Origin: Phaeodactylum tricornutum CCAP 1055/1 | Lineage: Eukaryota > Bacillariophyta > Bacillariophyceae > Surirellales > Neidiaceae | Direction: 5' to 3' | DNA length: 64,000 bases | Assembly (NCBI RefSeq): GCF_000150955.2 | Contig: NC_011679.1 | Coordinates: 868,001-932,000 of the forward strand | Shown here: positions 31,200 through 63,530 of the stretch, piece by piece | How the letters are laid out: every line of letters starts with the position of its first letter | How positions within the stretch are numbered: the first letter of the stretch is position 1 | The notes under the pieces: generated by a model | Database searches by the model: none | Seen by the model: the letters and a program-made list of their open reading frames with translations, nothing else | Told to the model about the DNA's origin: nothing | Made by a program: the position numbers and the translations under genes

Positions 31200-32885
31200 C
31201 TATTCCTCTCGCCGTCTTCGCTTAGGCGGTGCTCCATTGGTTTTATTTGGAAATGTTGATCGCCGGGTGTTATTGGCAGATGGCTGTCGCTGGTCGTGTA
31301 ATCGAGGGCGTTCGCCATCACCCTGATTTTGCGGCGGTCGTCCGGCATGGTTGCTGTTCGCAGGAGAGCCACGATTGTAGCCGCCATAACTTCTTTTGCC
31401 TTGCGCCAGGTTCGCATCGCTCCCTTGACTTCGCGGTCCGTACTTTTCTCCGTCGACCGGTCTGGTGAGTGGCGTATCCGTCCGCGTTCCTCTGGAATGA
31501 GTTGCGCCATTCCGTACGGGCTCTGGCGGTTGACGACGAGACCGTGGATCAAAACTGCTACGTTTCCGACTGCCTGCATCTCGAGCAGACAAGTGAAGAG
31601 GCCGGGGCGACGAAGAACGTCGGAGGTTGTTTCCTTGATGTTGTTGCTGCTGCTGCGGCGGTTGATTGACGGTTCGCAAGTCAACCACGGTTCGATCGGC
31701 CAAAAGGTCAAAGTCTACCAGTCGGGCCAAACCCCGATCCAAATCGAACGCCGTCAGCTTCGAGTTGTTACTGTGATTTCTTGAAAGTGAGTTCCACCCG
31801 TGTACCACTTTCTGTAACAGCTCTAAAGACCGCTCGTGCATGTCGCGAATTACCGACACGGGAACGTACCGACCAGAGGTCAGCAATCGATTCACGTTCC
31901 GATCTATGAGCTCTGGCAGTGTTGCCTGAAGCCCAAAAAGTTCTTGCGGAACCTTGTCCGCCAGGTCCATTTCTGAATTGTTCAGAACACGGAGTCGCGC
32001 CTTTTTGTCACTGTAGACTACAAAGCGGACAGGTCGGCGGGTGGAGGCTGCCATAACGAGAGCCATCCGGTAGTCACTCGGCCGCGTGTTGGTGTTGCCC
32101 CATGCCACTGGTCGGTCGATTGGGCATGCGTATAGCGCTTTTTCAGACGATTCCAGTCCAGTTGTAGAGTGGGTTCCGTCACGTCGGAATATGCGCTCCC
32201 GCACAAAAAGGTCTACCGTCTGTGGCAGCAGTGCCACCATAGTCTGGTCCTGCATACAGCGTTCCACTGCGTTGACTAGTAAGGTTTGTACAGATTTCGA
32301 TGTAGTAGATTCGCAGTGATCCATCCCCACGATATTGCCGATGATGGCATTGCGAAATTCCGATTCTGTCAAATTCCCCGCTACTCTTTGAAGCACGGTT
32401 CGGAGCTCTCGTTGATCATTTCCCTGGATTCGTTCCGCCAAAGACTTGCCACAAATACAGTGCGTACGTAGCTCTTCGGGATAGGAATTGGCTGTGTTGG
32501 TGAGAAAATATTCCGTATTCAGTGGTACATATGTGTCTGGCTGGTCATCCAGCGACACATCATCAATGGAGACTTGCGAGTAGTCCGGACTTTGTCTTTG
32601 TTGTTGTTGCAGCCAGGTAGTCTTGCCGGCGCAGGGTGGTCCAATCGTAATATACAGGGGCGCCGGTTGGTCCGATTTTGAAAAACTCAACTCACAGTCA
32701 GTAGTCGCAGTGCTTTCCGTTTGCATTGCAACGTGGACCTTGGGCTGCGTCAACAAAAAGCTACGCGCGAAAGGAAAGAGTACCACGAAAGAAAAGGTTA
32801 GGTAGCCAGCTTGTCGCTTGCTAGCAAAAGGCATGAAAGGTCGTCCGCACCAACAGTCAATCCTTCTCTTAGAACAGATTTGCAT
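31200..32885 (-). CDS. P-loop kinase-like protein with basic C-terminal tail (copy A)
   Basis: 561 residues from ATG 32885. An ATG at 32834 would start a clean signal-like N-terminus (hydrophobic YLTFSFVVLFPFARSFLL) and is a good alternative. Walker A is IGPPCAGKTT (residues 81-90), followed by SIDDVSLDD and a helical domain with FVRERIF, resembling the zeta/AAA_33 group of P-loop kinases; phosphate acceptor unknown. After a Gln run (PPQQQQQHQ) the last ~140 residues are Arg/Ser/Pro/Gly-rich with RSYGGYNRGS and a terminal PPKRRRREE, which looks like an RNA-binding and nuclear-localisation tail. A leader signal and a nuclear tail disagree, so location is open. Relative to copy B, one missing base in an A-run near 32905 puts an upstream ATG (32980) out of frame. 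Confidence 0.6.
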   Translation of the reverse strand: MQICSKRRIDCWCGRPFMPFASKRQAGYLTFSFVVLFPFARSFLLTQPKVHVAMQTESTATTDCELSFSKSDQPAPLYITIGPPCAGKTTWLQQQQRQSPDYSQVSIDDVSLDDQPDTYVPLNTEYFLTNTANSYPEELRTHCICGKSLAERIQGNDQRELRTVLQRVAGNLTESEFRNAIIGNIVGMDHCESTTSKSVQTLLVNAVERCMQDQTMVALLPQTVDLFVRERIFRRDGTHSTTGLESSEKALYACPIDRPVAWGNTNTRPSDYRMALVMAASTRRPVRFVVYSDKKARLRVLNNSEMDLADKVPQELFGLQATLPELIDRNVNRLLTSGRYVPVSVIRDMHERSLELLQKVVHGWNSLSRNHSNNSKLTAFDLDRGLARLVDFDLLADRTVVDLRTVNQPPQQQQQHQGNNLRRSSSPRPLHLSARDAGSRKRSSFDPRSRRQPPEPVRNGATHSRGTRTDTPLTRPVDGEKYGPRSQGSDANLAQGKRSYGGYNRGSPANSNHAGRPPQNQGDGERPRLHDQRQPSANNTRRSTFPNKTNGAPPKRRRREE

Positions 32886-33586
32886 TGACGCTGCACTGGG
32901 GACCTTAAGAGCGAGTCACAGTCCGTGCAATCGATTACGATCGTGAATGGTGTTGCCCGCTTACCGGCCCTTTCGTTCATCGAAATCGGGGTCCAGGAGT
33001 TATGCTCGATCCGGATTCGCCACGGACCCGGTAGTTTCGTTTTACAGTTAGCGGAACTTGGAAAAATGAAGACTACACTTATTACAATTACTGTGTAACC
33101 TTTAAGTCTTTAAAATACAAACTGCACCAACATAGTCAAGGCGCTCCTCCTTTCACAGTCAGGATCCAAGGAGTTGCATCCCGTACGTGCTCTATCCCTC
33201 TAAGCGTCTCTATACAGTCGATTTTAGAGCTAAAACAACGTCATATCATACTTGGTGTTGTGCTGACCAGTCAACGGGGTACCTACGCCAGTAGACCTTC
33301 ATTGTAGCTAGGTTATCATTCCAGTTCAATCACACAGAATCAATGCACGTCCATTTTGCGGTATAGACCACCAAAGAGGTCAAGAGAGTCATAGAGGAAA
33401 TCCTCGTATGTAGGAGCATTTGCACATCAAAAGGGTCGCCAATGCTGAGCAAAGAACAATACCTCTGTCACTCCTACCCGAAAAAGTAGATGCTCGCGCG
33501 AGCGCCTCGGCTGAGAAAATTCATAAAAAAGTAGGACGGTACGTAAACCTCGGTGTTCATAAATACAAACAAGAATTTTATGTGAA
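32886..33586. other. Intergenic region between kinase-like and membrane-protein genes (copy A)
   Basis: 700 bp, part of the duplication. TTTCACAGTCAGG lies at 33151-33163. Holds the promoter of the kinase-like gene and the 3' end of the membrane-protein gene. No other gene. Confidence 0.45.
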
Positions 33587-35725
33587 CTAGACCATTTCGC
33601 TATTGCTGCTTTGAGGCCGACTTCGCCTCCGCAGTTTCACACGAAGAGATCGCCAGAAGCGCCTCAGATAGAACAACAAGACTGCACGAGACCTTGAAAA
33701 GTAAAGGCCTGCCGTCACCATCCCGCAACCGATAATTATACTTACAGGGATGCATGCAACAATCAGTAGAGTAGTAGTATACTGTCGATCATAGTAGAAG
33801 TAGCCACCATAAGTGTTGCCGAAATAGCCAACTATCGCATAGTACAAGAGAATACAAACCGATAAAGGCGCTCCGATCCACCCACCCAGCTGAAGTACAG
33901 GATGGTCCAGCGCGAGGCCCATACCTAGTCCAATAGTCCCCATTACCGGAAATTCTCGGTTCACAAAAGCTAAAACCAATTGCACCACAATGACGCTATA
34001 TATTCCCCATAGCACCATCTCTCGGACGGCAAGGCTGAGTGATGCCGTGCACAAGCATATGAATGTAAAAACAAGCAATACTGGACTCAGCATGTCTAGC
34101 CAAGTTTCTTCCAGCCAAAGTCGGACTGCAAAGATAGACAACGCCAAGCAACCTGCTCCCGACTTTGTCTTGATGAATAGTAGGAGCACCAGCGCCGAAA
34201 GAAACAGAGATATTGCGGCAGCAACGTACCCAATGCCGCTAGTCCAGCGGAAACATCTACTTCCTTCGTTCCTCAAGGGTTGTTGAAAATCGGGGAAGGA
34301 AGTTGAGTTTGCAACTACAGTATACATCATCGACTGCGGGTCCAGCTGTATGATATGCAAAACCTCTTGATACGACGACCACTCATCAACAAATCTATCC
34401 TCTTGCAGCCTGATCCAGTATCGTCCATCGTGAGCTTTGCCAACGGATTCTAACCATCCCCCTCCGTCACTGTTTAGAAGAGTTGTGTTTCGAAATCCCT
34501 GACTTATGTTTTCATTGGAAGATACACACGCAACTGCTTGCGTTGTGTATTCATATATTTCCTCGTCGTCGTGTCCAACAAACTCCGTATAGAGGAAACA
34601 GAATCCTTCCATTGTTTCACCAGAACCTTCGTTAATACTCACGAAGCTATGCGGTTCGTGGAGTTGACTGTACACAGTAAGATTTCCATTTACGTTGGTC
34701 GCAACTAGTGTTTCCGTATCCATATAGGAATCCCAACCATGATGTTCCTTTTCGGCCATTCTACCGCGAAAGTAAGTAGTTCCGTCACTCATATGAATGT
34801 ATGATGATCCATCAGAATATGAATATCTCTGACTTGCCCATTCCTTTAGTTCTTGCGGGATATTTTCTAACGAGTCAATATCAAATTCCACGGAATCACC
34901 TGACTGTGATGTGATACTCTTCAAGCACATGGAAGATCCTTCGGAGCTGTACAAAAATATCAAAAGTGATAGCGCAGTCAGACAAGCAGTCACTGTGAGT
35001 GCCGTCAGTAGGTACAACAGGCTGACCAAGATTGGGACGGTCGGTTGCCGCGCTGGGTCCCTAAATAGATACGAGTCTATCTTTTGGGTCACCCGAGCGT
35101 GTACCAGGTCCAGTTCGCTGTAGTTCAAGTCCAACTTGTGCAACGGTGCCGTTCTTGGCCTGTTCAGATTCTCATTTGCGACTGGCCGTCCTTGAGGCTC
35201 TTCTTGCTGAGCCTTTCGCGCAAGCAATTCCATGCCCTTCTTGAGACGTACTGTGAACCAGTAAAAGACAATAGCATCCAGGCAAGCTAAGAGGGCTACC
35301 ATCCCGCATTTGACAATCCATGATTGCAGTTCGAGCGCACTGAACTGCGCAAGCCCGAAATCCCTTCGCTCGTCGGAATCGAAGTCGTCGTTCAATACAG
35401 CGTGCGTCGAGTTTCCCACAATATACGAAGGCGAGTATTGTAGATTGTATAGGGTGATTAAAGCGAGAAGGATCGTGTTAACGAGGAGCAGACCCAGCGG
35501 AAACCTGGCAAAGATCCACCAGAATCTCCATCCAGCAACAGGCGCCATCGCCTCTTCTTCTTCGTCGTCATCATCATTCTCCTCTTCCGCATCGTTTTCG
35601 ACTGGTGTGTTCATGATTTCCAAGGTTTCCATCCGGCGTTCTTCTGCCTCGGAAGAAATTCCCGTGGCGCGTCTGTTGTGGCGGTCGGCAGCAGTTGACT
35701 CCGGTCCCGTAGTAAACGCGTTCAT
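33587..35725 (-). CDS. Multi-pass membrane protein of a local four-member family (copy A)
   Basis: 712 residues. The N-terminal ~70 residues are hydrophilic with METLEIMNTPVEN and a strongly acidic run (NDDDDEEEEA). Two membrane spans follow (FPLGLLLVNTILLALITLY; MVALLACLDAIVFYWF), a His/Arg-rich loop, a third span (LLYLLTALTVTACLTALSLLIFLY), and then an extracytoplasmic domain of ~230 residues with several N-glycosylation sequons (NGNLTV, NENIS, RNTT, NSTS) and paired Cys. The C-terminal half has five or six further spans and ends in a basic RRRSRPQSS tail. A WxFWW motif precedes the first span. I do not recognise the family; receptor- or transporter-like topology is all that can be said. 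Paralogs: 44622-46778, 37418-39433 and the remnant at 42081. Confidence 0.75.
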   Translation of the reverse strand: MNAFTTGPESTAADRHNRRATGISSEAEERRMETLEIMNTPVENDAEEENDDDDEEEEAMAPVAGWRFWWIFARFPLGLLLVNTILLALITLYNLQYSPSYIVGNSTHAVLNDDFDSDERRDFGLAQFSALELQSWIVKCGMVALLACLDAIVFYWFTVRLKKGMELLARKAQQEEPQGRPVANENLNRPRTAPLHKLDLNYSELDLVHARVTQKIDSYLFRDPARQPTVPILVSLLYLLTALTVTACLTALSLLIFLYSSEGSSMCLKSITSQSGDSVEFDIDSLENIPQELKEWASQRYSYSDGSSYIHMSDGTTYFRGRMAEKEHHGWDSYMDTETLVATNVNGNLTVYSQLHEPHSFVSINEGSGETMEGFCFLYTEFVGHDDEEIYEYTTQAVACVSSNENISQGFRNTTLLNSDGGGWLESVGKAHDGRYWIRLQEDRFVDEWSSYQEVLHIIQLDPQSMMYTVVANSTSFPDFQQPLRNEGSRCFRWTSGIGYVAAAISLFLSALVLLLFIKTKSGAGCLALSIFAVRLWLEETWLDMLSPVLLVFTFICLCTASLSLAVREMVLWGIYSVIVVQLVLAFVNREFPVMGTIGLGMGLALDHPVLQLGGWIGAPLSVCILLYYAIVGYFGNTYGGYFYYDRQYTTTLLIVACIPVSIIIGCGMVTAGLYFSRSRAVLLFYLRRFWRSLRVKLRRRSRPQSSNSEMV

Positions 35726-37417
35726 CCTTTTCGTGTCGACGACGGGTGCGTATATGCGATACGTGTATTTGATACGTAAATGCGATACGTGTATGGATGT
35801 TCCTTCCGTCCGTCGATAAATCCCGACAACCCGCAGTCGAAAGTGTTCTGCCTGGAAACGGAGCTATTACAGATTGCGTAGCAAGCGCTTCTCTACTGGA
35901 AGGATAGAAACGTAACCACCAAGAGTGTTTCGTACGGGACAAATGGAGGATCTTTGGTGAAATGCTGAAAGTTTCAAAGCCGAAAACGGACTCGGAAGTG
36001 AACGATCGTCGATGACAGATGCTGACAGCTACCGTGACGAACGCGAGACAACATTGTTGACAGAATCCTGCACGAACGAGGGTACCGCAAATAGACACAC
36101 GTTGCAAAAGATACCTCTTTGGGGGAAAGAAAGATCCACGTGCCAATTATAACACATTTTGACAGAAAGAAGAGCGGCCAGAGTTCGATGGAATCACAGG
36201 TCTCTCTTCTCAGACAGGAAAAAGAATCAAATTCTGACGGAGAAGAATCTGCGAGCTCTTTGAGTCGTGAATGGGATGAGCTCGTGCTCTTTCGCAAATG
36301 CCGCAGGACCCACAGACGGGTCAAACGGGAATCGTCTCTACCCACAGTCAACACACGAAGGGCAGACTACCTACGGTATCTTCCCGCCGACCGTGAGTTC
36401 CGTTTCGGCTCTGTCCGAGTCGTCCATTGTATCCTTCTCTGTTACGTGGTGGGACTGGAAAGTATTCGTTGGCCGTAGATTTAGCCATCGAACAAAGCTT
36501 CCCAGCATGCTCGTGGCGTATTGGGCACGACCAACGGTGCTGTTCTTTAGAACTCAGCCGACATTGAGACAAGCCTGTCGAACTTTGCGTCAGGAAACGC
36601 ACAGTCAACAGCTAGAGATACCATCGGCGTGCCTTTCCTAGTGTGAGAAGTGGTACGAAGCGCGTTGGAAGCCGACACACTCGTCAAGGAAACGGATTGA
36701 CAAACGTCAGACAGGGCCGATGGACCCATTCCAGCCGCACACGCAAAAGGTATGTTGCCCGAAACGTCGGCAGCTACAGTAGCGGACAACGCGGTCGTAA
36801 GCTCAGCATGCTCCGCCGATACTCCGGTGTGCCCTACAACTTGGGAGTGGACCAGCCAAGGGTGCGGCAAGGCCAGCCATTGCCATGCAGGTTTCCATCA
36901 CAGTCTTCAAAAAGAAGATTTTTCATCTTGCGCCGCATTGCTGACCTTTGCAATGACAAGCATAGCAAGTCGCTGCTCCGTTAGTGGTCTCTTTTCCCAA
37001 TTTGGTGCTATTTTGGATTGCTATATTCTAGACAAGGCTTGCATGGTTACCTTTCGCTAGTTCCACTTTTCCGTAGTCTTGTGATGCAAAGCAGACGAGA
37101 AGCGTGGGATTCACATTACACATGTATTTCAAACTGTGCCAGTACGTGATACAGCAATTGCGGGTGGGTCAGTTTACATCAACATTAAGCGCAGAGAAGA
37201 ACAGAACGATCACATATCCCAGTGTGCAAATTGTAAAAAGGCATACGCTGCAAAAAAAGCAATACTCATTAAGATTTGGTGATTATGGTTTGCCGAGTTT
37301 TAGTGGTGACTGTGATGGATTGTTCGACGTCCACAAGATACAACGTAAAAATAGAATCTCACAGTCAGCAGCTAGTCAGTCAACATGCCTTTAAATCTGT
37401 GTATAAAAGTCCATTTC
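35726..37417. other. Intergenic region right of duplication copy A
   Basis: The first 757 bp (to 36482) belong to the duplication. 36193-36482 is also found at 53403-53691. Beyond 36482 the sequence is unique in the window. Several short plus-strand frames (for example 36752-37060) show no family character. TGACTGTGA and TCTCACAGTCAGC words lie near 37307 and 37357. No gene called. Confidence 0.4.
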
Positions 37418-39433
37418 TCAGCTTCTGCTTTGTTGTCGAATTTGCGGCCGTATTTTCAGGCAAAGCGATCGCCACAAACGCCTCAGGTAGAACAGCAGAA
37501 ATGGGCGGTATCTTGTGAGTTGATTCCCTGCCGTCACCATCCCGCAAGCAATAAGGACACTCAATGGAATAAACGCCACCAGTTCCAACCAATCAATGGA
37601 ATCAGTGATTGAGTAGAACAAAAGAAAAAAGACAGCAAATGGTCCTCCAATCCAGCCACCCAGCTGAAGTACGGGATGGTCCCGAGCAATGCCCAGACCC
37701 AGGCCAAAAACCACCACGGGGTAAAATTCGAAAACCAGTTGCAGGATGATAACGCAGTACATTCCCCACAGCATCTGCTCTCGGACAACTAAGCTGGGTG
37801 ACCCCATGATCAAGTAAAAAGCTGTCGCAATAATCAGCACGAGACTTAGCAAGCCTGCCAACGTTTCATCTATCCAAGTCAGAGTTGCAACGATAGACAT
37901 AGCCAAGCAACCCGCACTTGATGGAATTTTCAAAGTTTGTTCCATTGCAAGAGCAAAAATAAACAGAAATACTGCAGCAGCACTATATCCAATTTCTTGG
38001 ATCCGAAGGTTGCATTTTCCTTCTCTGGACCACACCGGTCGAAAGTCACGGGAATGGGTTTTATTGGCAATTGTTGTAGCCACCATGGTTTGTGGATTCA
38101 CTCGTACTATTTGCACTTCTTGGATGGACCAAAAATGCCTATCTACTCCATCCTGGCGTACCCAGTACTCACCATCATAAGCTCTGCCCAAACATGATCT
38201 CAGTTCCTGTTGGTTGCTGCTGGAAAAAGTAGTGTTCCGAACTTCTTGATTGGCATCTTCTTTAGAGTCAATGCAAGCAACAGAGAAGACACTACTCGCG
38301 TAGGGGACAGAGAAGAAGGTATCTATATCGTAGCCTTCCTGGACCACCTCCTTGTACAAGAAACAGAAGGAAGTTGATGTTCCACTGTTGTCTTCCAAGA
38401 CACTTGCAAAAAACGTAGGGCTGCTCACATGGCTATACATGGAAACACTTCCATCCGCCTTGGACGCAAGCAGCCTTAGGTTTGAATCCCTGTCAGATTC
38501 TATAGAATGAAACCCGTTGATCCTCATACCATGGTAAACAGAAAGCATTGTAGGTTCTTGTATATATGCTGCAGACCCTCGGAAGTAAAGAGTCCCATCG
38601 GATAGACGGACGTATGTTGCTTCAACGGAGGATCCTTCGTTCGCCCAGTCTAGCAAATCTTCCGGGACACCATCTGTCTGATTGAATTTGATGACATTGG
38701 TGTCCCTTGCTGTACACAGAGACATTCCTTGCGCGCTATTTACAAATATCAGCAGCAAAACCGAAGTCAGAGAAGCCGTCGCCGCGAGTGCCATAAGCAG
38801 GTACAACAAGCTGACCAAAAAGGGAAACGTTGATTGCCATGCTGGATCGCGATGAAGATACGCGTCTACCTTTTGCGCGACTCGAGCGTGCACGTGGTCC
38901 AGTACCTTCAAATCTAATTGCGGGAGCGGTGCCGCTGTTCTCCATATCGGACTCTGCGTCTCGGCGCTTTGTGCTTGCGAGTCCTGTGCTTGATGCTCCC
39001 TCACTAGCAAGTGCATATCCTTCCGAAGAAACGCGGCGGCCAAGTACAGGAAAATGATATCCAAGAATGCCATCACTACCACCCCTACGCATTTGACACG
39101 AAACCTCGTCATCATGAGCATTAACGAGCTCGTCTCCCAATCATTGTTATAGGTGTCTTGGTAGTCATTTTTTGGATTGTACAGGGACAGGAAAAGCAAC
39201 ACAACCGTGTTGATGAGGAGTAGAGCCAACGGGTACTTGGCAAAGGCCCACCAGAATCTCCATCCGGCAATATGCCTCGAAAGAGGATAACGAGCTTCGA
39301 AATCATCTGGCATCGACTCCTCTTCGTCCATATCGGTGGCATCCACGTCGTCGACGGGACTCCCCATGATTTCCATGGTTTCCATCTGGCGCTCCCCGAT
39401 TGCGGACGGAACACCCGCTGTAGACCTGTTCAT
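37418..39433 (-). CDS. Multi-pass membrane protein, diverged third paralog (copy C)
   Basis: 671 residues, ATG 39433. Same architecture as copies A and B: ERQMETMEIMGSPVDD near the start, an acidic MDEEESMPDDF run, the GWRFWWAFAKYPLALLLINTVVLL first span, HVHARVAQKVDAYLHRDPAWQSTFPFLVSLLYLLMAL, and DHPVLQLGGWIGGPFAVFF near the end. Overall identity to A is perhaps half, so this is an old paralog, not part of the recent duplication. The extracytoplasmic domain is the most diverged part and keeps the pattern of Cys and sequons only loosely. It lies between the two recent copies in the same orientation. Function unknown. Confidence 0.75.
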   Translation of the reverse strand: MNRSTAGVPSAIGERQMETMEIMGSPVDDVDATDMDEEESMPDDFEARYPLSRHIAGWRFWWAFAKYPLALLLINTVVLLFLSLYNPKNDYQDTYNNDWETSSLMLMMTRFRVKCVGVVVMAFLDIIFLYLAAAFLRKDMHLLVREHQAQDSQAQSAETQSPIWRTAAPLPQLDLKVLDHVHARVAQKVDAYLHRDPAWQSTFPFLVSLLYLLMALAATASLTSVLLLIFVNSAQGMSLCTARDTNVIKFNQTDGVPEDLLDWANEGSSVEATYVRLSDGTLYFRGSAAYIQEPTMLSVYHGMRINGFHSIESDRDSNLRLLASKADGSVSMYSHVSSPTFFASVLEDNSGTSTSFCFLYKEVVQEGYDIDTFFSVPYASSVFSVACIDSKEDANQEVRNTTFSSSNQQELRSCLGRAYDGEYWVRQDGVDRHFWSIQEVQIVRVNPQTMVATTIANKTHSRDFRPVWSREGKCNLRIQEIGYSAAAVFLFIFALAMEQTLKIPSSAGCLAMSIVATLTWIDETLAGLLSLVLIIATAFYLIMGSPSLVVREQMLWGMYCVIILQLVFEFYPVVVFGLGLGIARDHPVLQLGGWIGGPFAVFFLLFYSITDSIDWLELVAFIPLSVLIACGMVTAGNQLTRYRPFLLFYLRRLWRSLCLKIRPQIRQQSRS

Positions 39434-40236
39434 GTGCTGTGTGGATCGACCTTATAGTAAATGTAAGTGCCCTTGCGAATGCCAGTTCTGCGGAATTGGG
39501 TGGTAGGTGTTGGTCACGGATCCTTTCACTGGACAAGGTTCTTTTGCAACTGTGGAAGCGTTGTTGGTGGAACTCTTACTTGCGTTGGATGCGATAGAAC
39601 TGTCCAGCATGATAAGGAATATACGAGAACAAAAACGCTTCGTTACACAGTTAGATCCATTGAAGCTTGTCGATCGTTACTGATAGTGGCACGTGTCATT
39701 CAGCCATTCATCGATGACTTAACACTTACACTTAAAGCAAGTACGTTGAACCAAGATCCCCCCGTTGGGTTTGGACTTCATAAATGGATAGTTCTCTACC
39801 GAAAAGAAGGGATGTCGTGTTCGTTTTTCACAGTCAGTCCGACCCATCGATATACAATCCGCGAACTCTACGAATCGGGAAAGAAGAGCTCTGATCGTCC
39901 GCGCCCGCGCCTGTGCGACAGAATCCGGCCGGACGAATTGGTAGGGATTCGACTCCAACGTGAGTTGACAATTGGATAGTCGGCGCTTCGACTCCGCCAC
40001 AATCCCGATCGTAGATCGACTCCCGATTCGATTGTTGACAGAGCTGATCTGCTTCCAGTTACTGCGCAACTCCAGTTGCTAGCGTTAAAAACAACCTAAT
40101 GAGCGAAGGGCTCTTGCGAGAGAGAGTCTCGTCGTGTTGAAACTGTTGCAAACAGATTACTTTTCCCTACCAGTGCTACTGCTGCTGCTACTTGCTACTG
40201 TTACAGTTGCTCGCTTGTGCGACCGAACACGAGAGT
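39434..40236. other. Intergenic region between divergent genes
   Basis: About 800 bp between the starts of copy C (minus) and the LRAT-like gene (plus). TTCACAGTCAGTCC lies at 39827-39840. A 170-codon plus-strand frame at 39467-39979 has no recognisable feature and I do not call it. Promoter sequences for both genes are expected here. Confidence 0.4.
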
Positions 40237-41601
40237 ATGCAATTCTCACCAACGCCGCTGGAAGAGCCGCGGTGGGATCGCACGGTGAAAGTCGTCGTCT
40301 CTCCCGCCACGGCTACGGTCTCGAGACCTTCTACAGATCGCGCGACGGAACACGACAGCCATGAGGGCAACGGGGACGCGCCCATGGATAGGCCGCTAAA
40401 TCCGATTGTCGGTTGCCTGAGCATGGAAGCCGGGGAACCTACTCAACAAGCAGAACACGCGGGAGTTGGCGAGGAGGTATTGGAAAAGACGGCCTATGTG
40501 GAGGAAGGAGCATCAGTGCTAGGAGCCGAGACGCTTGTTCCGGATGCTGCCTCTGAAGATGAGCGCGATGTTCCGATGATCACGACAACAAATCCAGCTT
40601 ACGCAATTCCACCAATATCCGTGCCGAGCGACCAAAAGAACACGGACGTTGATACGAACACGACTGAAGTACCGCCCTTTGCCATGGGAGATCACGTGTA
40701 TCGCTTGACGGGACCGTTTGGATTGTCCCAGCATCACGCTATCGTACTGACTGTGGCACGGAACGAAACGTCGCCCCTCGAGTGGATCTTGGAGATTGCT
40801 GACTTTGATGCTTTGCTGGGAGCCCAGTCGGATCTTGATCAGAATGAAATGAGACAAACGGATTGTACGTCCACACCGCAACATGCTGGTATGGTTGAAG
40901 CAACGTCACAGTCCCCCCACACAACCGAACTCGAAAATGCCGACGCGGAGGCTTTGGAGTCCGTCGATAATCACGAGACGCCCAAAAAAACTGACGTCGC
41001 ACTCACCTCACAGTACGTTCGAGAGTATCGCACGTCCGATTCCACGGTGACTTGGCACAAGGTACAGTACCACGCACGCTGGCTGCGCCGTCATTTTGGT
41101 CGTAGTGGAACGTGTACCGCAGCCGCAGCCGACGCTCCGGGTATGGTTCGAGCCCGGGTGGACTTTCTTTTGCATCACCCCGAGGCCTTACCGCCTTACC
41201 ACATGCTCCAAGCCAATACGGAGTGTGTCGCGGTTTGGTGTCGAACTGGTACATGGGCTACATTGCAAGCCACGTCTTGGTTAGCCGTGACGGCGGCGGG
41301 ACAAGCCAAGTCGGCCGCGACGCTAGCAACCGTCGCCGCGTCCACCACCGTCACCGTTCCTGCGGCCGGACTCTGGGGTTGGATGGGCTACACCTCCCAG
41401 GCTAGTTTGGCCGTCACCCAACCGCACCTTCTACCGGCCATTGCCGCCTACGGAGTCGTGACGGTGGGACTCCCGCTGTTGTTTCTCCAAAAGGCCAAGC
41501 AAAAATGGAAAGACGTCACGGTTCAACTCAATACGGCCTTTTGGGACTGGGCTCAGTCGTCGGAGGACTTTGTCGAGTCTCTGCTGCAGTGGAGCAGCTA
41601 A
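40237..41601 (+). CDS. LRAT/NC-domain protein with C-terminal hydrophobic region
   Basis: 454 residues from ATG 40237; the frame opens upstream only with TTG. The N-terminal ~145 residues are acidic and disordered-looking. MGDHVYRL (from about residue 150) and the pair His166-His167 in SQHHAIVL are the first half of an LRAT/NC (permuted papain-like) domain. The second half, YHMLQANTECVAVWCRTG, carries Cys330 in the position of the catalytic Cys of NCExF(A)xWCKTG. An acidic insert of ~90 residues separates the halves. The C-terminal ~110 residues are Ala/Val/Thr-rich and hydrophobic (possible membrane anchor), ending in an amphipathic Trp-rich tail. Known members are thiol acyltransferases or phospholipases; substrate unknown. 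NTEC in place of NCE shifts the Cys within the motif, so activity is not certain. Confidence 0.65.
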   Translation: MQFSPTPLEEPRWDRTVKVVVSPATATVSRPSTDRATEHDSHEGNGDAPMDRPLNPIVGCLSMEAGEPTQQAEHAGVGEEVLEKTAYVEEGASVLGAETLVPDAASEDERDVPMITTTNPAYAIPPISVPSDQKNTDVDTNTTEVPPFAMGDHVYRLTGPFGLSQHHAIVLTVARNETSPLEWILEIADFDALLGAQSDLDQNEMRQTDCTSTPQHAGMVEATSQSPHTTELENADAEALESVDNHETPKKTDVALTSQYVREYRTSDSTVTWHKVQYHARWLRRHFGRSGTCTAAAADAPGMVRARVDFLLHHPEALPPYHMLQANTECVAVWCRTGTWATLQATSWLAVTAAGQAKSAATLATVAASTTVTVPAAGLWGWMGYTSQASLAVTQPHLLPAIAAYGVVTVGLPLLFLQKAKQKWKDVTVQLNTAFWDWAQSSEDFVESLLQWSS

Positions 41602-42375: not shown

Positions 42376-42409
42376 GCAGGTACCGCCCGTGCCCATCCAC
42401 ACGTAAAAG

Positions 42410-44621: not shown

Positions 44622-46778
44622 CTAGACCATTTCGCTATTGCTGCTTTGAGGCCGACTTCGCCTCCGCAGTTTCACACGAAGAGATCGCCAGAAGCGCCTC
44701 AGATAGAACAACAAGACTGCACGAGACCTTGAAAAGTAAAGGCCTGCCGTCACCATCCCGCAACCGATAATTATACTTACAGGGATGCATGCAACAATCA
44801 GTAGAGTAGTAGTATACTGTCGATCATAGTAGAAGTAGCCACCATAAGTGTTGCCGAAATAGCCAACTATCGCATAGTACAAGAGAATACAAACCGATAA
44901 AGGCGCTCCGATCCACCCACCCAGCTGAAGTACAGGATGGTCCAGCGCGAGGCCCATACCTAGTCCAATAGTCCCCATTACCGGAAATTCTCGGTTCACA
45001 AAAGCTAAAACCAATTGCACCACAATGACGCTATATATTCCCCATAACACCATCTCTCGGACGGCAAGGCTGAGTGATGCCGTGCACAAGCATATGAATG
45101 TAAAAACAAGCAATACTGGACTCAGCATGTCTAGCCAAGTTTCGTCTAGCCAAGTTTCTTCCAGCCAAAGTCGGACTGCAAAGATAGACAACGCCAAGCA
45201 ACCTGCTCCCGACTTTGTCTTGATGAATAGTAGGAGCACCAGCGCCGAAAGAAACAGAGATATTGCGGCAGCAACGTACCCAATGCCGCTAGTCCAGCGG
45301 AAACATCTACTTCCTTCGTTCCTCAAGGGTTGTTGAAAATCGGGGAAGGAAGTTGAGTTTACAACTACAGTATACATCATCGACTGCGGGTCCAGCTGTA
45401 TGATATGCAAAACCTCTTGATACGACGACCACTCATCAACAAATCTATCCTCTTGCAGCCTGATCCAGTATCGTCCATCGTGAGCTTTGCCAACGGATTC
45501 TAACCATCCCCCTCCGTCACTGTTTAGAAGAGTTGTGTTTCGAAATCCCTGACTTATGTTTTCATTGGAAGATACACACGCAACTGCTTGCGTTGTGTAT
45601 TCATATATTTCCTCGTCGTCGTGTCCAGCAAACTCCGTATAGAGGAAACAGAATCCTTCCATTGTTTCACCAGAACCTTCGTTAATACTCACGAAGCTAT
45701 GCGGTTCGTGGAGTTGACTGTACACAGTAAGATTTCCATTTACGTTGGTCGCAACTAGTGTTTCCGTATCCATATAGGAATCCCAACCATGATGTTCCTT
45801 TTCGGCCATTCTACCGCGAAAGTAAGTAGTTCCGTCACTCATATGAATGTATGATGATCCATCAGAATATGAATATCTCGGACTTGCCCATTCCTGTAAC
45901 TCTTGCGGGATATTTTCAATCGAGTCAATATCAAATTCCACGGATTCACTTGACTGTGATGTGATGCTCTCCAAGCACATGGAAGATCCTTCGGAGCTGT
46001 ACAAAAATATCAAAAGTGATAGCGTAGTCAGACAAGCAGTCACTGTGAGTGCCGTCAGTAGGTACAACAGGCTGACCAAGATTGGGACGGTCGGTTGCCG
46101 CGCTGGGTCCCTAAATAGATACGAGTCTATCTTTTGGGTCACCCGAGCGTGTACTTGGTCCAGTTCGCTGTAGTTCAAGTCCAACTTGTGCAACGGTGCC
46201 GTTCTTGTCCTGCTCAGATTCTCATTTGCGACTGGCCGTCCTTGAGGCTCTTCTTGCTGAGCCTTTTGCGCAAGCAATTCCATGCCCTTCTTGAGACGTA
46301 CTGTGAACCAGTAAAAGACAATAGCATCCAGGCAAGCTAAGAGGGCTACCATCCCGCATTTGACAATCCATGATTGCAGTTCGAGCGCACTGAACTGCGC
46401 AAGCCCGAAATCCCTTCGCTCGTCGGAATCGAAGTCGTCGTTCATTTCAACGTCCGTCGAGTTTCCCACAATATACGAAGGCGAGTATTGTGGATTGTAT
46501 AGGGTGATTAAAGCGAGAAGGATCGTGTTAACGAGGAGCAGACCCAGCGGAAACCTGGCAAAGATCCACCAGAATCTCCATCCAGCAACAGGCGCCAGCG
46601 CCTCTTCTTCTTCGTCGTCGTCATCATCATTCTCCTCTTCCGCATCGTTTTCGACTGGTGTGTTCATGATTTCCAAGGTTTCCATCCGGCGTTCTTCTGC
46701 CTCGGAAGAAATTCCCGTGGCGCGTCTGTTATGGCGGTCGGCAGCAGTTGACTCCGGTCCCGTAGTAAACGCGTTCAT
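44622..46778 (-). CDS. Multi-pass membrane protein of the local family (copy B)
   Basis: 718 residues from ATG 46778, the start shared with copy A. The frame is open further up to 47183, but only from a TTG, and copy A cannot be read through that stretch. Nearly identical to copy A. Main differences are one extra Asp in the acidic run, a repeated LDETW unit (a short tandem duplication near 45130-45160, just before the fifth or sixth span) and a cluster of substitutions at the start of the extracytoplasmic domain. All membrane spans and sequons are kept, so it looks functional. Upstream, ~450 bp of duplicated flank lead to the left end of the MULE, so part of its original upstream region is now 6 kb away. 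Confidence 0.75.
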   Translation of the reverse strand: MNAFTTGPESTAADRHNRRATGISSEAEERRMETLEIMNTPVENDAEEENDDDDDEEEEALAPVAGWRFWWIFARFPLGLLLVNTILLALITLYNPQYSPSYIVGNSTDVEMNDDFDSDERRDFGLAQFSALELQSWIVKCGMVALLACLDAIVFYWFTVRLKKGMELLAQKAQQEEPQGRPVANENLSRTRTAPLHKLDLNYSELDQVHARVTQKIDSYLFRDPARQPTVPILVSLLYLLTALTVTACLTTLSLLIFLYSSEGSSMCLESITSQSSESVEFDIDSIENIPQELQEWASPRYSYSDGSSYIHMSDGTTYFRGRMAEKEHHGWDSYMDTETLVATNVNGNLTVYSQLHEPHSFVSINEGSGETMEGFCFLYTEFAGHDDEEIYEYTTQAVACVSSNENISQGFRNTTLLNSDGGGWLESVGKAHDGRYWIRLQEDRFVDEWSSYQEVLHIIQLDPQSMMYTVVVNSTSFPDFQQPLRNEGSRCFRWTSGIGYVAAAISLFLSALVLLLFIKTKSGAGCLALSIFAVRLWLEETWLDETWLDMLSPVLLVFTFICLCTASLSLAVREMVLWGIYSVIVVQLVLAFVNREFPVMGTIGLGMGLALDHPVLQLGGWIGAPLSVCILLYYAIVGYFGNTYGGYFYYDRQYTTTLLIVACIPVSIIIGCGMVTAGLYFSRSRAVLLFYLRRFWRSLRVKLRRRSRPQSSNSEMV

Positions 46779-47229
46779 CCTTTTCGTGTCGACGACGGGT
46801 GCGTGTATGCGATACGTAAATGCGATACGTGTATGGATGTTCCTTCCGTCCGTCGATAGATCCCGACAACTCAGAGTCGAAAGTGTTCTGCCTGGAAACG
46901 GAGCTATTACAGATTGCGTAGCAAGCGCTTCTCTGTTGGAAGGATAGAAACGTAACCACCAAGAGTGTTTCGTAGGGGACAAATGGAGGATCTTTGGTGA
47001 AATGCTGATAGCTTCAAACCCGAAAACGGATTCGGAAGTGAACGATCGTCGATGACAGATGCTGACAGCTACCGTGACGAACGCGAGACAACATTGTTGA
47101 CAGAATCCTGCACGAACGAGGATACCGCAAATAGACACGTTGCAAAAGATACCTCTTTGGGGAAAGAAAGATCCACGTGCCAATTATAACACATTTTGAC
47201 AGAAAGACGAGCGGCAAGAGTTCGATGGA
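46779..47229. other. Duplicated upstream flank of copy B, up to the MULE
   Basis: Matches 35726-36192 of copy A. No gene. Ends at TTCGATGGA, where the MULE inverted repeat begins. Confidence 0.5.
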
Positions 47230-47263
47230 GAATCCTATTAAACGTCCCATTTTCCACGTCATC
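47230..47263 (+). repeat. Left 34-bp terminal inverted repeat of the MULE
   Basis: Begins GAATCCTATTAAACGTCCCA and ends ACGTCATC. It is an exact reverse complement of 53369-53402. Confidence 0.9.
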
Positions 47264-47573
47264 AATCAGAGATGGAATCCTGCAAAAGCAATTTTTTGGT
47301 TTTCAGACTCAGAGTCAAGCATGCAGCCCGGCCGGCGCTTCCGTTTGGAATCTCGAGCCGGCAATGTAAATCAAAAAAATTGACCGTGAAAAATCACATA
47401 TCCAGGGAAGTTTGACTGATTGAAATAAAGGGGTATTCTTGATGGAGATAGCTACCGGTACGTAAAAAGGATGGCTTCTATGCAAACAAAAAACAAATAC
47501 AAGTTGCATCTCACCCAGGAGAATTGTCTAGTACCGCAAAATTCAGATTTGGACGTACAGTGCGGAGCTCGAC

Positions 47574-47939
47574 GGAAGCTTTGACGCGCAAAAGGCAGTG
47601 TGGCGTGGTGGCGGTAACGGCGACGGAAGTAGAGTTTTGGGTTTCCCTGTGTTGCAACGGAGACGGAAGTACAGTTTTGGGTTTCCCTGTGTCGCAACGG
47701 AGACGGAAGTACAGTTTTGGGTTTCCCTGTGTCGCAACGGAGACGGAAGTACAGTTTTGGGTTTCCCTGTGTTGCAACGGAGACGGAAGTACAGTTTTGG
47801 GTTTCCCTGTGTCGCAACGGAGACGGAGACAGAAGTTCTTTACGGAGAGCAACGGAAGCTTTGACGCGCAAAAGGCAGTGCGGCGTGGTGGCGGTAACGG
47901 CGACGGAAGTGCGGTTTTGGGTTTCCCTGTGTTGCAACG
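47574..47939 (+). repeat. Satellite upstream of the MULE transposase: 40-bp tandem repeats within an 87-bp direct repeat
   Basis: Four full 40-bp units (GTTTCCCTGTGTTGCAACGG + AGACGGAAGTACAGTTTTGG) occupy 47641-47800, with partial units on both sides and one alternating T/C position. A longer ~87-bp segment (CGGAAGCTTTGACGCGCAAA...) occurs at 47574-47660 and again at 47852-47939. Because 40 is not a multiple of three, the repeats keep long frames open in several registers; these are not genes. The array ends ~55 bp before the transposase ATG, so it probably lies in the promoter or 5' UTR. Confidence 0.9.
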
Positions 47940-47993
47940 AAGACGGAGACGGAAGTACAGTTTTGGGGTTCCGGGGCGACAGTGATTGCAACA

Positions 47994-50900
47994 ATGGCAT
48001 CTTCCCTTGCAAAATTTACAGATGCATTGTCCCAGCTCCTAACAACGGAGTCATTGCAAAAGGCAATTGATGAATTGAAAAATGACCTTCAATCTTGGGA
48101 TGCTCTAATTGCTTTTCCAGTTGTTCTTCCAGTATTACCTGGTATGCCAGCAACACTCTCCTATTGCAACAACCTTCTGGAGTACACAAAATCAAAGTAC
48201 AAAGGCCAGAAAGTATACTTTTGCCAGAGCAAATACCCTTTACATGATGGCTGGGAAGTATTGAAGAATGATCTTGAAAGTGCAGCACTAGAGCAAGGAT
48301 CCGCAATCATTTCAAATGGTGGTGGCACCGGCAATGCCCGGAACAGTAAAAAGTTGATATGTAAATGTGGTCGAGTCTACCAAAGAGGGCTGACAGACAA
48401 GGATAAAGTGAAAACCTTCCGAAATGGCTCCCTCCACAGTGACAGAAAAAATTCCCGAGGGCCTAATGGCAAGAGAATGCCAAGAAGAACAAGCAGCATG
48501 CGTCCAGACAATGCAAATTCTGTTTGTCGTATGAGTTTTACTATCAAATGGGACAAAAACGGTTATTACTTGTATTGCGGATACGGGAACATCAAACACA
48601 CCAACCATGTCAAGCTGGCAGGAAAGCATATGACATTTCCAAAGCGTCTTGTAGCAGATGCGGAACGGGATGTTGTTGAGTCTATTGGTGCTGCAAAAGC
48701 ACTTCATGCTGTGGCTCGCAATGTCCACTTTCAAAGAACAGGACGCCTCTTGAGCCATTCACAAGTTCGCTACATGCACAACATGGCAGAGAAGATTACC
48801 ATGGCATTGTTGGTGGATGGAAGTTCGATCAACATTGATGCCTTAAGTGATTCTGAGCGAATGTTTGAACATTTTAAGTTGCACGGAGTGAACTATTCAC
48901 TGCTGTACAACCATGTGCCAACAGAGTTGGCAAGTAACAGCACAAGTACTAGTTGTCAGGCTACGGTGGATAACAACTCCTTGACTTCTTGTTTGCTGGG
49001 TATGACAGATGGTGAGTCTGTGTCACTCACAAGTCCAAGCTCTTTAGTTAGCGAGACCCACAATGTAAATGATTGGTTGGGTTCATCAACAGCAGTGAAG
49101 CTTCCCCCAAAAGAAAATGAGGATATGCTTAGATTTGCCAATGAACACCGAGATTCATACAAGCTTGAAAACAGCCAGAAGCTAATGATTGGATGTGCTT
49201 GGATTCATCCAAAAGAAAAGCGCCTATTCCAATTGTTTCCAGAAGTTGTTCATGTGGATTCCACTGCAGATACAAACAAGGAAGGCCGTCCTCTTTTGAC
49301 AATGACAGGCCGTGATTCAAGTGGAAAGCACTTCACTATACTTCGTGTGTTCCTTCCAAATGAGCGAGCTTTTGTTTTCCGTTGGTTATTCCGTCTTGTT
49401 CTGCCCTCACTTCTTGGGACAAAATGGACAAAGAGAATAAAGGTCATTATAACAGATGGAGATTCACAAGAGACCTCCCAGCTTGACATTGCCATAGCTT
49501 TGCTGTTTCCTGATGTTCTTCGAGTCCGATGTGGTTGGCATATTGTTGATCGAGGCTGGAAAAGAAAATGCCCAGGTAACTTGTGGTCAAAGCAGACTTG
49601 TGTTGCATTGTATTTCTGTCTACTGCTTTCTTATAATTGCTCTTTTCTATGCAAAACATAGGGTATCAGTTGGTAGATGTATGTAACAGAAATAAATTTG
49701 AGGTAGTCACTAAGATTATCAAGAGTTGGCTGTATTCATGGATGCAGCCATGGCAGTGTGAGACAGAGAAGGAGTACAATATCTCCAAGTCCCTTTTGTT
49801 TGCATACATGCAGTCATTGGAAGTTGTGTCTGTCATGGGTCAACAAAATGCATCAAGGATCTTCCAATTTATCCGAGAGAACGTTGAACCACACGAATCA
49901 CATTACTGTTTTCACAAGCGTAAGACTGTTCGACACTATGACACATTTGTGAACTCAGCTCATGAGGGCACAAACAATGGCTTAAAGAATTCTGCTGCTC
50001 CTGTGTTGCCACAGTACACCATTGACCAATCTGCGTCAGTGCTCACTAAGAATGCCAGTGTCAATACATTGGCTAAAGAGCTTGCTGCTGGCCAACAAAG
50101 TATTCGTCACAAACTTTGGTCAGACCTGCCAACTTCCAAGCATCTAAATACTTTGGGTGAATCTCTAATTGTTAAAGAGTGGAAACTACATAAAGCCTAC
50201 GGCCTTGAACGTGTGGCACTTGACACCTTCCATGTGAAACATTGCAACCCAAAACCAGTAATGGTGAAGCAAAGTGCCCCCATCCCCCTCTTTCAGCGGG
50301 TACGTCTTGTAAAAATCTGTAGGCGGCGGCTCTATTGCTCTTGTGAATATTTTTGCCGCATTGGTCTTCCTTGTCGACACATTATGTGTATCTTGACCGC
50401 AATTTGTCCAGAATACAAGGGAGTTACTCATCATGACGTTAGTGTTGTGTGGTGGTCCATTTACAGTCTCTGTGGCTATAGCAAGAGCAACAATAATGAA
50501 AGATTCCATGAGGTGTCCACACTTTGCGAGTCTCTGCGAAACCATGATGTGGATGGCCCTCTCCTTCCACTATCAAACAAGCTTGCAGATATTCCAGTGG
50601 TAACAGATGTTTCATCAAAATTCAAGGTCCATCCTGCTGAGTGTTATTGCTCCAATTACAGCAAGTCAACAATCTTACAGGCAATGGCAAAAGCAGGGTT
50701 TAGCAACAATGTTGAGGTAAATCCTCCAGCTCAGTTTTCCCAAGAAACTATTCTTTCAGATAGAACAGACAACATTACCTTTCCCTCATTCGAAGACCAG
50801 GATTTTGCCCTCAATAGATCAACAAAGTCTTTCTACGAATGCATTATTCCTCTGTCCAAAGAGATTGCCAATGTCCTGGATTCCAGCAACTTGCAAGACG

Positions 50901-51058
50901 ATGGGAATGAGCTGTTGTTGTATATGAGCACATTCCTTGCAAGGAAAAGAGGCCAACTATCAGCACAATCATCAAGTCATAACAATGGCAGTAGTGTTGT
51001 CTCAGTGTGTGCACTCTCTAACAAACGACGCAAGACCCATGGCACAAAGCCTGCGTAA
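47994..51058 (+). CDS. MULE transposase (DDE) with SWIM zinc finger, two exons
   Basis: Join 47994-49575 and 49662-51058, giving 992 residues. The 86-bp intron (GTAACT...CAAAACATAG) splits a Gly codon and keeps frame. An N-terminal zinc/DNA-binding-like region has CKCGRVYQRG and a CGYGN...HTNH cluster. The catalytic domain shows Asp422 in HVDSTADTN, Asp488 in IITDGDSQ, CGWHIV shortly after, and Glu629 in AHEGTNNG, the D-D-E layout of the MULE fold. The SWIM finger follows: Cys753, Cys755, Cys765 and His767 in CSCEYFCRIGLPCRH. No internal stop. The first frame opens at a GTG; the ATG at 47994 is preferred. It should cut and rejoin DNA at the element's inverted repeats. Confidence 0.85.
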
Positions 51059-51144
51059 TAGTAAACAAACACTTGGTTGTAGTAGTAATCAAATAGTTGT
51101 GTCTAGTATTGAGCAATGCAGAGTTGTCAAATGAGCCAAATGGC

Positions 51145-52833
51145 TTACACAAACTTTTTGAGCTTGCGGTAAATGTAAAAGCAAGGTAATTGCGTAGAAT
51201 TCTTTGGTGATGTATTGATAGCGAGGTTTTTTTGTCTGTCGGTTGTTGATTGAAGCTCCTGGCCAGTTATTGGCACAACTGTGGACGCGCTGGAATTGCC
51301 TGCATTCAAATAACTGGTAGCCAGCAATACCTGAGAAGAACAGGCCGGCCGCATCCAACAAGGTCCACCCAATTTTGATCTCGTCACTGGGATTATTCAT
51401 TTGCGCAAAGCCGTAGCGGAGTATGAGATCTTGATTACTGAGAAGGCCGTAACAGCAATATACTTCCGACCCTTTGCGAACACGCTTGTGAACGATTGCC
51501 TGTGGTGGATGCGACGCGGGTCCCGGGCTGTCTTCGACATTGACGTTTGATTCTGGAACGCACGGTTTCCAGGTCACCTGGTGGGCTTCCGTTTTGTGAT
51601 TTAGCATGTCCAGTAAAGGAATCATACAAATATCGGGTGGTGATTGAAGCTCCTGGCCAGTTGTCGGTACAAACGTGGACGCGCTAGTATTGCCTTCGTT
51701 CAAATAACTGGTAGCCGGTAATACCCGAGAAGAAGAGCACGCCGCCGCCCAAATTCAATGCTCCCAGGTCAAGAGTCTCGGTGGAAATGTTTCCGGGAAG
51801 TGTTCCAGAATGCCGGCCTCCAGCAAGGCGGTGAACTCCGGGTCAAGCTGTAATGTGCTGGTGACAACCTCTTTCAACAAGGATACTCCCGGAATGCATC
51901 CTGCCAAGAGTGCAAGCTCATTACGTTTCCAGCACAGCGGAATCGACACAGAGGATGGTAGAGTCCATGCGCACGGAGCAAAGGTCTCCGGGGCCCCGGA
52001 AGGGACTTGCACACTGGTTGCTGACCGCAAGGCGTTGCCGTCGTTACTCTCCAGCGCCATTTGCAATTTTTGTATGCCGGATGAGACCCCGGGTTGACTG
52101 GTGTTGGAAAATTGCAGATGAATAAGCAATGCCAATACCGGCGCTTGTGTGGACACACCTTTGGATGCCGCTAATGAGTACGCCCCAATGGTAGCCGTAG
52201 TGGGACTATTTTTCCGATGGTTAAATAGGGCTTCCACCTTTTTGCGTTCCTGCCAAATCTTGACCAACAACTGTGGCCCCGTATTCCCCACCACTTTGGG
52301 CAAAAAGGTTGCTTTGCACAAGGTTGTGTTTTCCACTAAGTCCCAGAATCCTTCCGTGCCGGTTGCGTGTGAGATGCACGCCAAGACCACCTTTCCGGCA
52401 TCACTCGCGGTCACCAGATTGGGTGAAATCATGGCGGATTGTGGCATGGTCATGAGTACTTCTTCCGGTTTGAGTTCCCGGGCTGCTTGTACTTGACATC
52501 CCATGGTGCGATCCCTTGTGTGTCGGGCCCTTACCGTTGGATGCTTTTCAAAAAGCAGCACAGGGGCGTTTCGGGTCCCGTCCGTGGCTTCCCCATTGAC
52601 AATACACAATTCCGGGTGGACGTCCACTCGGGCTTTTTTGGTGAGCCAGTGACAAAGGTAACGAGTCGGGAGGAAAGCGCTTTGGCGGCCGCCTCGGCAG
52701 CGGCAGTTTCATCGGCGTTTCCCGGAATGGCAGTAGCGTTAGTAGTGCATATCGCGATACCCATGATGCTCTCGTACAACTTTTCTCGGCGACTACCTTC
52801 CCCATTGGCAGTTGCACCTCTTCTTCCCGACAT
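51145..52833 (-). pseudogene. Decayed SET-domain gene (SETD3/Rubisco-LSMT type) carried by the MULE
   Basis: Read on the minus strand, the main frame runs from about 52650 to 51145 with a single in-frame TGA at 51755-51757. It shows GCQVQAARELKPEEVLMTMP (SET entry), WTLPSSVSIPLCWKRNELALL, WAAACSSSRVL, MIPLLDMLNHK and EVYCCYGLLSNQDLILRYGF, all typical of the SETD3/plant Rubisco methyltransferase group. The likely ATG at 52833 lies in another frame, so at least one more shift or a lost intron is present. After NPSDEIKIGW the expected C-terminal substrate-binding domain is missing. Instead a ~105-bp copy of an internal segment (51641-51745) is pasted at 51248-51352. Its position between transposase and right inverted repeat suggests capture of a host gene. 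Confidence 0.75.
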
Positions 52834-53029
52834 GTGGAGGTAGGTAGGCTAGTGTAGTGTGGGGAGGTTGGTTCGATAGACAGGCAGGCAGGCAAAGTGT
52901 CTAGATTCTTGTGCGGGGACTTTTCTTTCGTTCGAATGAGGGCTGTTGCAGATCAAGACGCTCGCAACCGAACTATCTCCGACTGGTTTGACGGGTGAGA
53001 CTGTGAAATGCTGGAGACTGTTACCGAGG

Positions 53030-53062
<33 letters not shown>

Positions 53063-53368
53063 TCACACACAGTCCGTAGGTATTGTGAAATACGTGAGCA
53101 TTATAGAGTGGTAGATTTTATTGTATTTCGAACGTTGTGCCGGCGGCAGCGGTATGTCTCCATCTAATCCACAAAAGCACACTTCCTTTTTGAGGGTCCT
53201 TCCGGCATTTTAACTGTAAATGGAATTGGGATAAACGGTCAGTACTATGTTGATAACAATTCAAAATCGAGGGGAAAGGACTCGGAGCCGGCGAAAACAA
53301 AGATTCCGTTGATTCAAAGCTTCCACGTGGAGGCATCTCAAGGAGAAATTTTCATGTAGACGTCATAC
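52834..53368. other. Upstream region of the captured SET gene, with CT/CA microsatellite
   Basis: No gene. Holds GGCAGGCAGGCA near 52880 and a (TC)10(AC)11-type microsatellite at 53030-53072. Probably promoter and 5' UTR picked up with the SET gene, ending at the right inverted repeat. Confidence 0.5.
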
Positions 53369-53402
53369 GATGACGTGGAAAATGGGACGTTTAATAGGAT
53401 TC
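53369..53402 (-). repeat. Right 34-bp terminal inverted repeat of the MULE
   Basis: Begins GATGACGTGG and ends GTTTAATAGGATTC, after which the duplicated flank resumes with GGTCTCTC. Confidence 0.9.
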
Positions 53403-53691
53403 GGTCTCTCTTGTCAGACAGGAAAAAGAATCAAATTCTGACGGAGAAGAATCTGCGAGCTCTTTGAGTCGTGAATGGGATGAGCTCGTGCTCTTTCGCA
53501 AATGGCGCAGGACCCACAGACGGGTCAAACGGGAATCGTCTCTACCCACAGTCAACACACGAAGGGCAGACTACCTACGGTATCTTCCCGCCGACCGTGA
53601 GTTCCGTTTCGGCTCTGACCGACGCGAGTCGTGCATTGTATCCTTCTCTGTTACGTGGTGGGACTGGAGAGTATTCGTTGGCCGTAGATTT

Positions 53692-63340: not shown

Positions 63341-63530
63341 CTGCATGCGAGCCATGCACCACAGGTGGGGTTCGCACCGATTTCGGGATGAAGGAAGCAT
63401 CTTGGAATTTTGAAGCGGTAGCTTCGCGTTCCGCAAGGCGCTTACGAAGTTGGAAAACCTTCGTAGCGTTTGTTACGGAGTACTACCAAAGCACAACCAA
63501 GGATGGATCGCTGTTATGACAGTGTGTAGT

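Follow-up and report, generated by a model that had tools for sequence, protein, structure and literature searches.

The window, a stretch of 64,000 nucleotides from Phaeodactylum tricornutum CCAP 1055/1, spans positions 868001-932000 of contig C11 (assembly of 27.45 Mb, 88 contigs) and has a G+C content of 48.4%, compared with 48.8% given for the P. tricornutum 2008 reference (PMC8147415). Its right half contains copies of a four-gene repeat unit, a MULE-type DNA transposon and two copia-like elements, one nested in the other (Table 1; coordinates are those of the window unless a contig is named). TTAGGG repeats terminate C11 13 kb to the right of the window end, and the array is therefore subtelomeric; the same telomere repeats also terminate C60, one of two further contigs carrying array sequence. 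The locus matches in detail the account of chromosomes 11 and 31 in PMC2806351.

Table 1. Repeat units, genes and inserted elements in the window
Feature	Position	Strand	Remarks
Gene1, copy A	31200..32885	-	561-aa P-loop ORF, RG-rich tail; AAA_33 28 bits, cut-off 27
Tandem repeat unit 1 (copy A context)	31384..42419		11,036 bp; gene1, gene2, gene C, gene3; from B left junction and C60 order
Gene2, copy A	33587..35725	-	712-aa ORF, hydrophobic stretches by eye
ATCACA, empty-site bases missing in B	36193..36198		comparison of A, C31 and C60 with B
Gene C	37418..39433	-	671 aa; diverged gene2 paralog, 45% identical
AATCC	40001..40005		uninterrupted here; LTR-element target in other copies (left flank C31, right flank C60)
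Gene3	40192..41601	+	469-aa ORF
Copy B, left block	42420..47229		gene1 42410-44017, short C-terminus; gene2 44622-46778, 718 aa
MULE-type DNA transposon	47230..53402		6,173 bp; sole full copy found in assembly
MULE left TIR	47230..47263	+	34 bp, perfect
Subterminal 40-bp tandem repeats in MULE	47563..47972		just upstream of transposase start
MULE transposase gene	47982..51058	+	two ORFs; putative 86-bp GT-AG intron 49576-49661
Captured C22 host gene fragment in MULE	51148..53181	-	84-89% identical by segment
MULE right TIR	53369..53402	-	34 bp, perfect
Copy B, right block	53403..53691		terminal GATTT target duplication 53687-53691
5' LTR of copia-like CoDi5.3 (name of PMC2806351)	53692..53970	+	3' LTR is C31 239215-239493
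ACAAG, target duplication of nested element	55942..55946		partner C31 236179-236183; ACAAG also in PMC2806351
Nested Ty1/copia-like PtC25/CoDi2.3 (2009 names)	55947..63340	+	RVT_2 ORF 57217-62925
CTGCA, 3' flank of nested element	63341..63345		equals 5' flank of C31 copy (222002-222006)

Gene1 of copy A has no PDB match at E 0.1, gene2 has neither a Pfam nor a PDB match, and gene3 has no Pfam match. Structure prediction gave no identification of gene2, the model from three window sequences being unusable (mean pLDDT 36.8); by eye, the gene2 family is membrane-protein-like. The array sequences examined contain six open frames of gene2 or gene C, of 668 to 738 aa. Gene2 itself lies at 33587-35725 and 44622-46778 in the window, at 12698-14839 on C60 and at about 240200-242800 on C31, and its frame is open in all four copies. 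By 200-bp block the C60 gene2 is 73 to 98% identical to copy A (up to 27% divergence), and the blocks around it are 94 to 100% identical except for the first, at the left edge (85%). Compared with copy B, the C60 gene2 is a mosaic of patches with a dS of 0.21 and a dN/dS of 0.68, and one patch, near 34443-34545, is common to the C31 and C60 genes.

A BLAST search of the window against itself aligns 31384-36192 (copy A) with 42420-47229 (copy B) in direct orientation at 97.87% over 4828 aligned positions, and 36199-36482 with 53403-53691, also direct, at 96.5% over 289. This confirms the claim of an earlier note that 31384-36482 recurs in two blocks around a transposon; that note would have given the claim up had the right-hand block been unrelated to 36193-36482, and the two align well. 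The length and identity of the match leave no issue of chance. With the flanks of the transposon joined, the alignment of A and B from 31434 on has 62 differences in 5025 aligned positions and 14 indel events, and most 200-bp blocks are 98 to 100% identical; the 40 bp of the left edge (31384-31423), however, are identical at 31 positions, versus 99% just inside. The blocks had also been described as separated exactly by 34-bp inverted repeats. The repeats are there, matching at 34/34 positions, but the separation is not exact, as six bases of A (ATCACA) have no counterpart in B.

An assembly search finds homologous stretches beyond A and B on C60 and C31. C60 matches 40001-42374 at 98.3% and then 42373-47229 at 91.5%, the two matches being separated there by 287 extra bases, with the gene order gene3-gene1-gene2 that is also found at B. 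The left junction of B fuses 42419 to the equivalent of 31384, and C60 has the same junction save for the 287 extra bases; because its gene order is the same, this junction is one between tandem copies, and the unit extends from 31384 to 42419. A junction of unit end to unit start and copies in direct orientation are thus both present, as in a tandem segmental duplication. The left flank of A (28600-31383) has no other match in a DNA search of the assembly. C31 matches 36476-37707 and then 33871-40009, gene C and gene2 having crossed over inside a 63-bp homology (84%); a recombinant gene of this kind, Pt2_50888, is described in PMC2806351. The duplicated unit thus measures about 11.0 kb and contains four genes; it is not the 5.1 kb of the earlier note. 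The visible 5.1 kb is a remnant of it, the apparent right end being the insertion point of an LTR retrotransposon with the target site duplication (TSD) GATTT, and the array continues on C31 and C60. Another LTR element is seen at C31 246783-247413 and C60 363-7788, with AATCC common to its left flank on C31 and its right flank on C60, and the flanks of the C60 element itself do not match (TCAAT and AATCC); this perhaps reflects a second exchange or a contig break.

The element that splits copy B is of MULE type, as had been proposed: between the 34/34 inverted repeats, its transposase matches PF10551 (1.8e-11, 44.8 bits, cut-off 27.6). The 992-aa frame is open from the first Met, with the two ORFs in phase across the putative intron, and we infer that the element is active. 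The SWIM zinc finger model (PF04434) gives E 0.55 and 10.3 bits, the cut-off being 19.6; a C-x-C...C-x-H stretch can be seen by eye, and a regular expression allowing a shorter gap gave no match. Searching the assembly with up to 3 mismatches finds no second such MULE end, and the remaining matches to the element are partial; its right end is similar to those of relatives beyond the 34 bp. The 40-bp repeats have a short match near C5 986162 (85% over about 70 bp).

All three of the other copies, A, C31 and C60, have the empty site, GATGGAATCACAGGTC, and B lacks ATCACA with nothing duplicated, a net loss of 6 bp relative to each (overlap -6). MULEs generally have TSDs of 8 to 11 bp and TIRs that are commonly hundreds of base pairs long (PMC6446971). 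A TSD concealed by shifted MULE ends was considered and rejected, because among 64 combinations of ends only the unshifted one fits. The record is thus less clean than the earlier note had it. With TIRs and a transposase and no TSD of 8 to 11 bp, the element is filed as MULE-type by its transposase. A family TIR pattern gives 13 matches in the assembly and none in a reversed control. Five elements can be paired at both ends, on C11 (the present one), C14, C5, C24 and C4, with the single ends on C2, C33, C41 and C55 excluded, the right end of the C5 element taken from another search and the pairing of the C24 TIRs, 20 kb apart, assumed. No TSD is found at the ends of any of the five in a scan for exact common words of at least 5 bases within 20 bp of the ends, whose two hits are a 5-mer that lies in the C24 TIRs themselves and, at C4, a 6-mer ending 12 bp outside the left TIR; the TSDs of old copies may have decayed, or ends may be misdrawn at degenerate TIRs (C14, C5 and C4). 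The 6-bp loss is shown for one insertion, that on C11. The MULE-Diatoms group of PMC6446971 is tabulated there as "No TSD and not indicated", with one ORF and a SWIM zinc finger, and is like the present element in having no TSD; its TIRs, however, are 123 to 124 bp rather than a perfect 34 bp.

Like a Pack-MULE, the element carries a fragment of a host gene, although Pack-TYPE elements are called non-autonomous (PMC8903248) and this one has an open transposase frame, given the putative intron. The fragment matches C22 over the first part of an open 1166-aa frame with an RRM (Pfam) and over the sequence upstream of that frame, and is probably genomic in origin, because it includes sequence upstream of the likely start of that frame. 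The captured copy has several deletions, one out-of-order segment and one in-frame stop that divides it into two ORFs. Reading it as a SET-domain sequence was rejected: the SETD3 match of the piece in the MULE is weak (E 0.04), RRM is the only Pfam match of the C22 frame, and the best 60 of its 97 PDB matches lie in the RRM. A related MULE-type element without a visible TSD lies at C14 2886-6406, and its ORF at 4318-5871 (517 aa) joins a transposase-like N-terminal stretch to a thymidylate synthase segment (PF00303, 3.1e-88). Relative to the C1 sequence, two of the three gaps in this segment are exact removals of GT-AG introns, and the piece therefore looks RNA-derived; the third gap (100 bp) has no GT-AG ends and is probably a coding deletion.

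At the right edge, copy B terminates in ...GTAGATTT, where the LTR begins; GATTTAGCC follows the end of this LTR on C31, and A reads GTAGATTTAGCC at the equivalent site without interruption. GATTT is thus present at both outer sides of the CoDi5.3 halves and once in A. The LTR sequence at 53692 is found at many sites in the assembly, several of them paired 5 to 7 kb apart in an LTR-like manner, and most other copies match as two overlapping pieces, some 30 bp longer. The GATTT junctions and this recurrence indicate a copia-like insertion with a 5-bp TSD whose halves are on C11 and C31; the LTR does not end in TG...CA, and its end and the TSD rest on the comparison of the three junctions. A reading of the 281 bp at 53692-53972 as the trace of a circle insertion or of a translocation with a staggered break was rejected on the same two grounds. 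The authors of the 2009 report termed the C11 CoDi5.3 LTR 5' truncated (PMC2806351). A copia-like element starting at the far edge had been noted before, and its LTR does start at 53692, but the large copia frame is not part of it and belongs to the nested element.

The nested element has LTRs of about 0.6 kb that are 99.0% identical and, with its RVT_2 match (2.4e-29), combines a copia reverse transcriptase with an LTR pair; its name, CoDi2.3 (PtC25), is assigned from location and ACAAG. It is flanked on C11 by ACAAG (5') and CTGCA (3') and on C31 by CTGCA (5') and ACAAG (3'), a reciprocal swap. The exchange between C11 and C31 has been in print since 2009, when Maumus et al. (PMC2806351) described the half with ACAAG and inferred that PtC25 and PtC75 had recombined; CTGCA and GATTT are absent from the text of section 12 and the legend of Fig. 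8 of that report. C31 222007-236178 is a tandem pair of CoDi2.3 elements that have one LTR in common and are 99.85% identical to each other, and one simple crossover between single elements therefore does not fit. That the exchange occurred in the cell, rather than being an assembly mis-join, may be slightly favoured by the T2T placement (PMC9266582), with doubt arising from the haplotype mosaicism of the reference and its poorly resolved chromosome 31 (PMC8147415).

The identity of A and B does not date the duplication. In the gene1 region (31434-33567), A and B match at 2116/2132 positions, A and C60 at 2087/2129, and B and C60 at 2088/2130, so that all three are 98 to 99% identical, and outside gene2 the array copies differ by a similar 1 to 2%. 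The C60 gene2 is a far more diverged mosaic, and in the 40 bp of the left edge, where A and B are so unlike, B and C60 match at 39/40 positions. Dating by A-B identity was therefore rejected, and a recent date for the duplication is not supported: gene conversion among the copies of an old array would produce such a pattern, although 40 bp is little evidence, and identity between array copies is not to be equated with age. That the duplication preceded the MULE insertion, as the earlier note held, is well supported, the site being uninterrupted in the three other copies.

The locus is very probably a subtelomeric tandem array of a four-gene unit of about 11 kb, in which unit 2 is broken by the MULE and the nested copia elements and the right half lies on C31. 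The unit would have been duplicated in tandem, with unit 2 running from 42420, after which the MULE would have entered the upstream region of gene2 in unit 2, between 36192 and 36199 (A coordinates), with no TSD and 6 bp removed. Independently, CoDi5.3 would have inserted at 36482 (A coordinates) with the TSD GATTT, and CoDi2.3/PtC25 into CoDi5.3 with the TSD ACAAG. The right half of the array would then have come to lie on C31 through homologous exchange of a pair of CoDi2.3 elements, or through an assembly mis-join there. The junctions, TSDs and empty sites are directly visible; beyond duplication before insertion, we infer the order of these events and the reality of the exchange. A simple recent segmental duplication of 5.1 kb followed by the MULE would agree with the identity of most 200-bp blocks and the direct orientation of A and B, but is highly improbable: an LTR insertion with its TSD makes up the right edge, the array resumes on C31 beyond the other LTR of that element, the left junction with gene3 is common to C60, and the left edge is abruptly diverged.

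Less easily dismissed, though still unlikely, is a layout that is largely an artefact of assembly, with haplotypes or near-identical copies joined at CoDi2.3 and at the AATCC-flanked LTR element. The reference has been judged a two-haplotype mosaic on the five chromosomes examined, with chromosome 31 not confidently resolved and scaffolding confounded by LTR retrotransposons (PMC8147415); C31 terminates on the right inside an LTR element, so part of the layout could be assembly, C60 begins on the left close to one, and the C60 element has unmatched flanks. The A-B duplication and the MULE, however, have exact junctions and are contained in non-LTR sequence of a single contig, C11 and C60 both reach telomere repeats, and the T2T authors placed the earlier partial chromosomes consistently, without internal inconsistencies (PMC9266582). 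It is about equally doubtful that the MULE inserted elsewhere with a normal TSD of 8 to 11 bp and was moved to copy B by recombination or by repair, or that a later deletion removed its TSD. Such TSDs are the rule for MULEs, and the 6-bp loss is known from one insertion; against this, with unshifted ends the flanks fit the empty site except for a gap of exactly 6, none of the five two-ended elements shows a TSD, and the diatom MULE group is itself tabulated without one (PMC6446971). Insertion of the MULE within the array without a TSD remains our preferred reading, and it is possible, if less likely than its opposite, that a diatom MULE lineage integrates without a staggered cut, with no target duplication and a net loss of a few bases (the loss being shown once), and repeatedly captures host genes (a genomic fragment of that of the RRM protein and, on C14, a spliced thymidylate synthase segment). 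If so, its integration mode would be atypical of the superfamily, and an exact empty site is on hand to test it: the three uninterrupted copies provide one, base by base, for a MULE-type insertion lacking a TSD.

Much of the locus has been published already. The PtC25 and PtC75 loci of PMC2806351 are the same locus, on chromosomes 11 and 31, with the CoDi2.3 elements, the split CoDi5.3, ACAAG, five members of one gene family, the recombinant Pt2_50888 and a region of more than 7 kb also duplicated elsewhere; the unplaced scaffold Bd 31.35 of the Fig. 8 legend is presumably C60. The text of that report describes here no MULE, no unit of 11 kb, no GATTT on both sides of the entire CoDi5.3 and no reciprocal CTGCA flank, and the available text of the literature on diatom, Pack- and TSD-less MULEs and on captured spliced genes yielded no description of the MULE insertion. 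Breakage of the array was formerly attributed to LTR elements; the array is now resolved, and the added detail would be a DNA transposon inserted without target duplication. Elsewhere in the subtelomeric window, an ORF at 5134-6831 contains a POT1 telomere-binding domain (PF02765, 1.3e-13), and 117-272 and 1490-1645 form an inverted repeat of 156 bp (97% identical).
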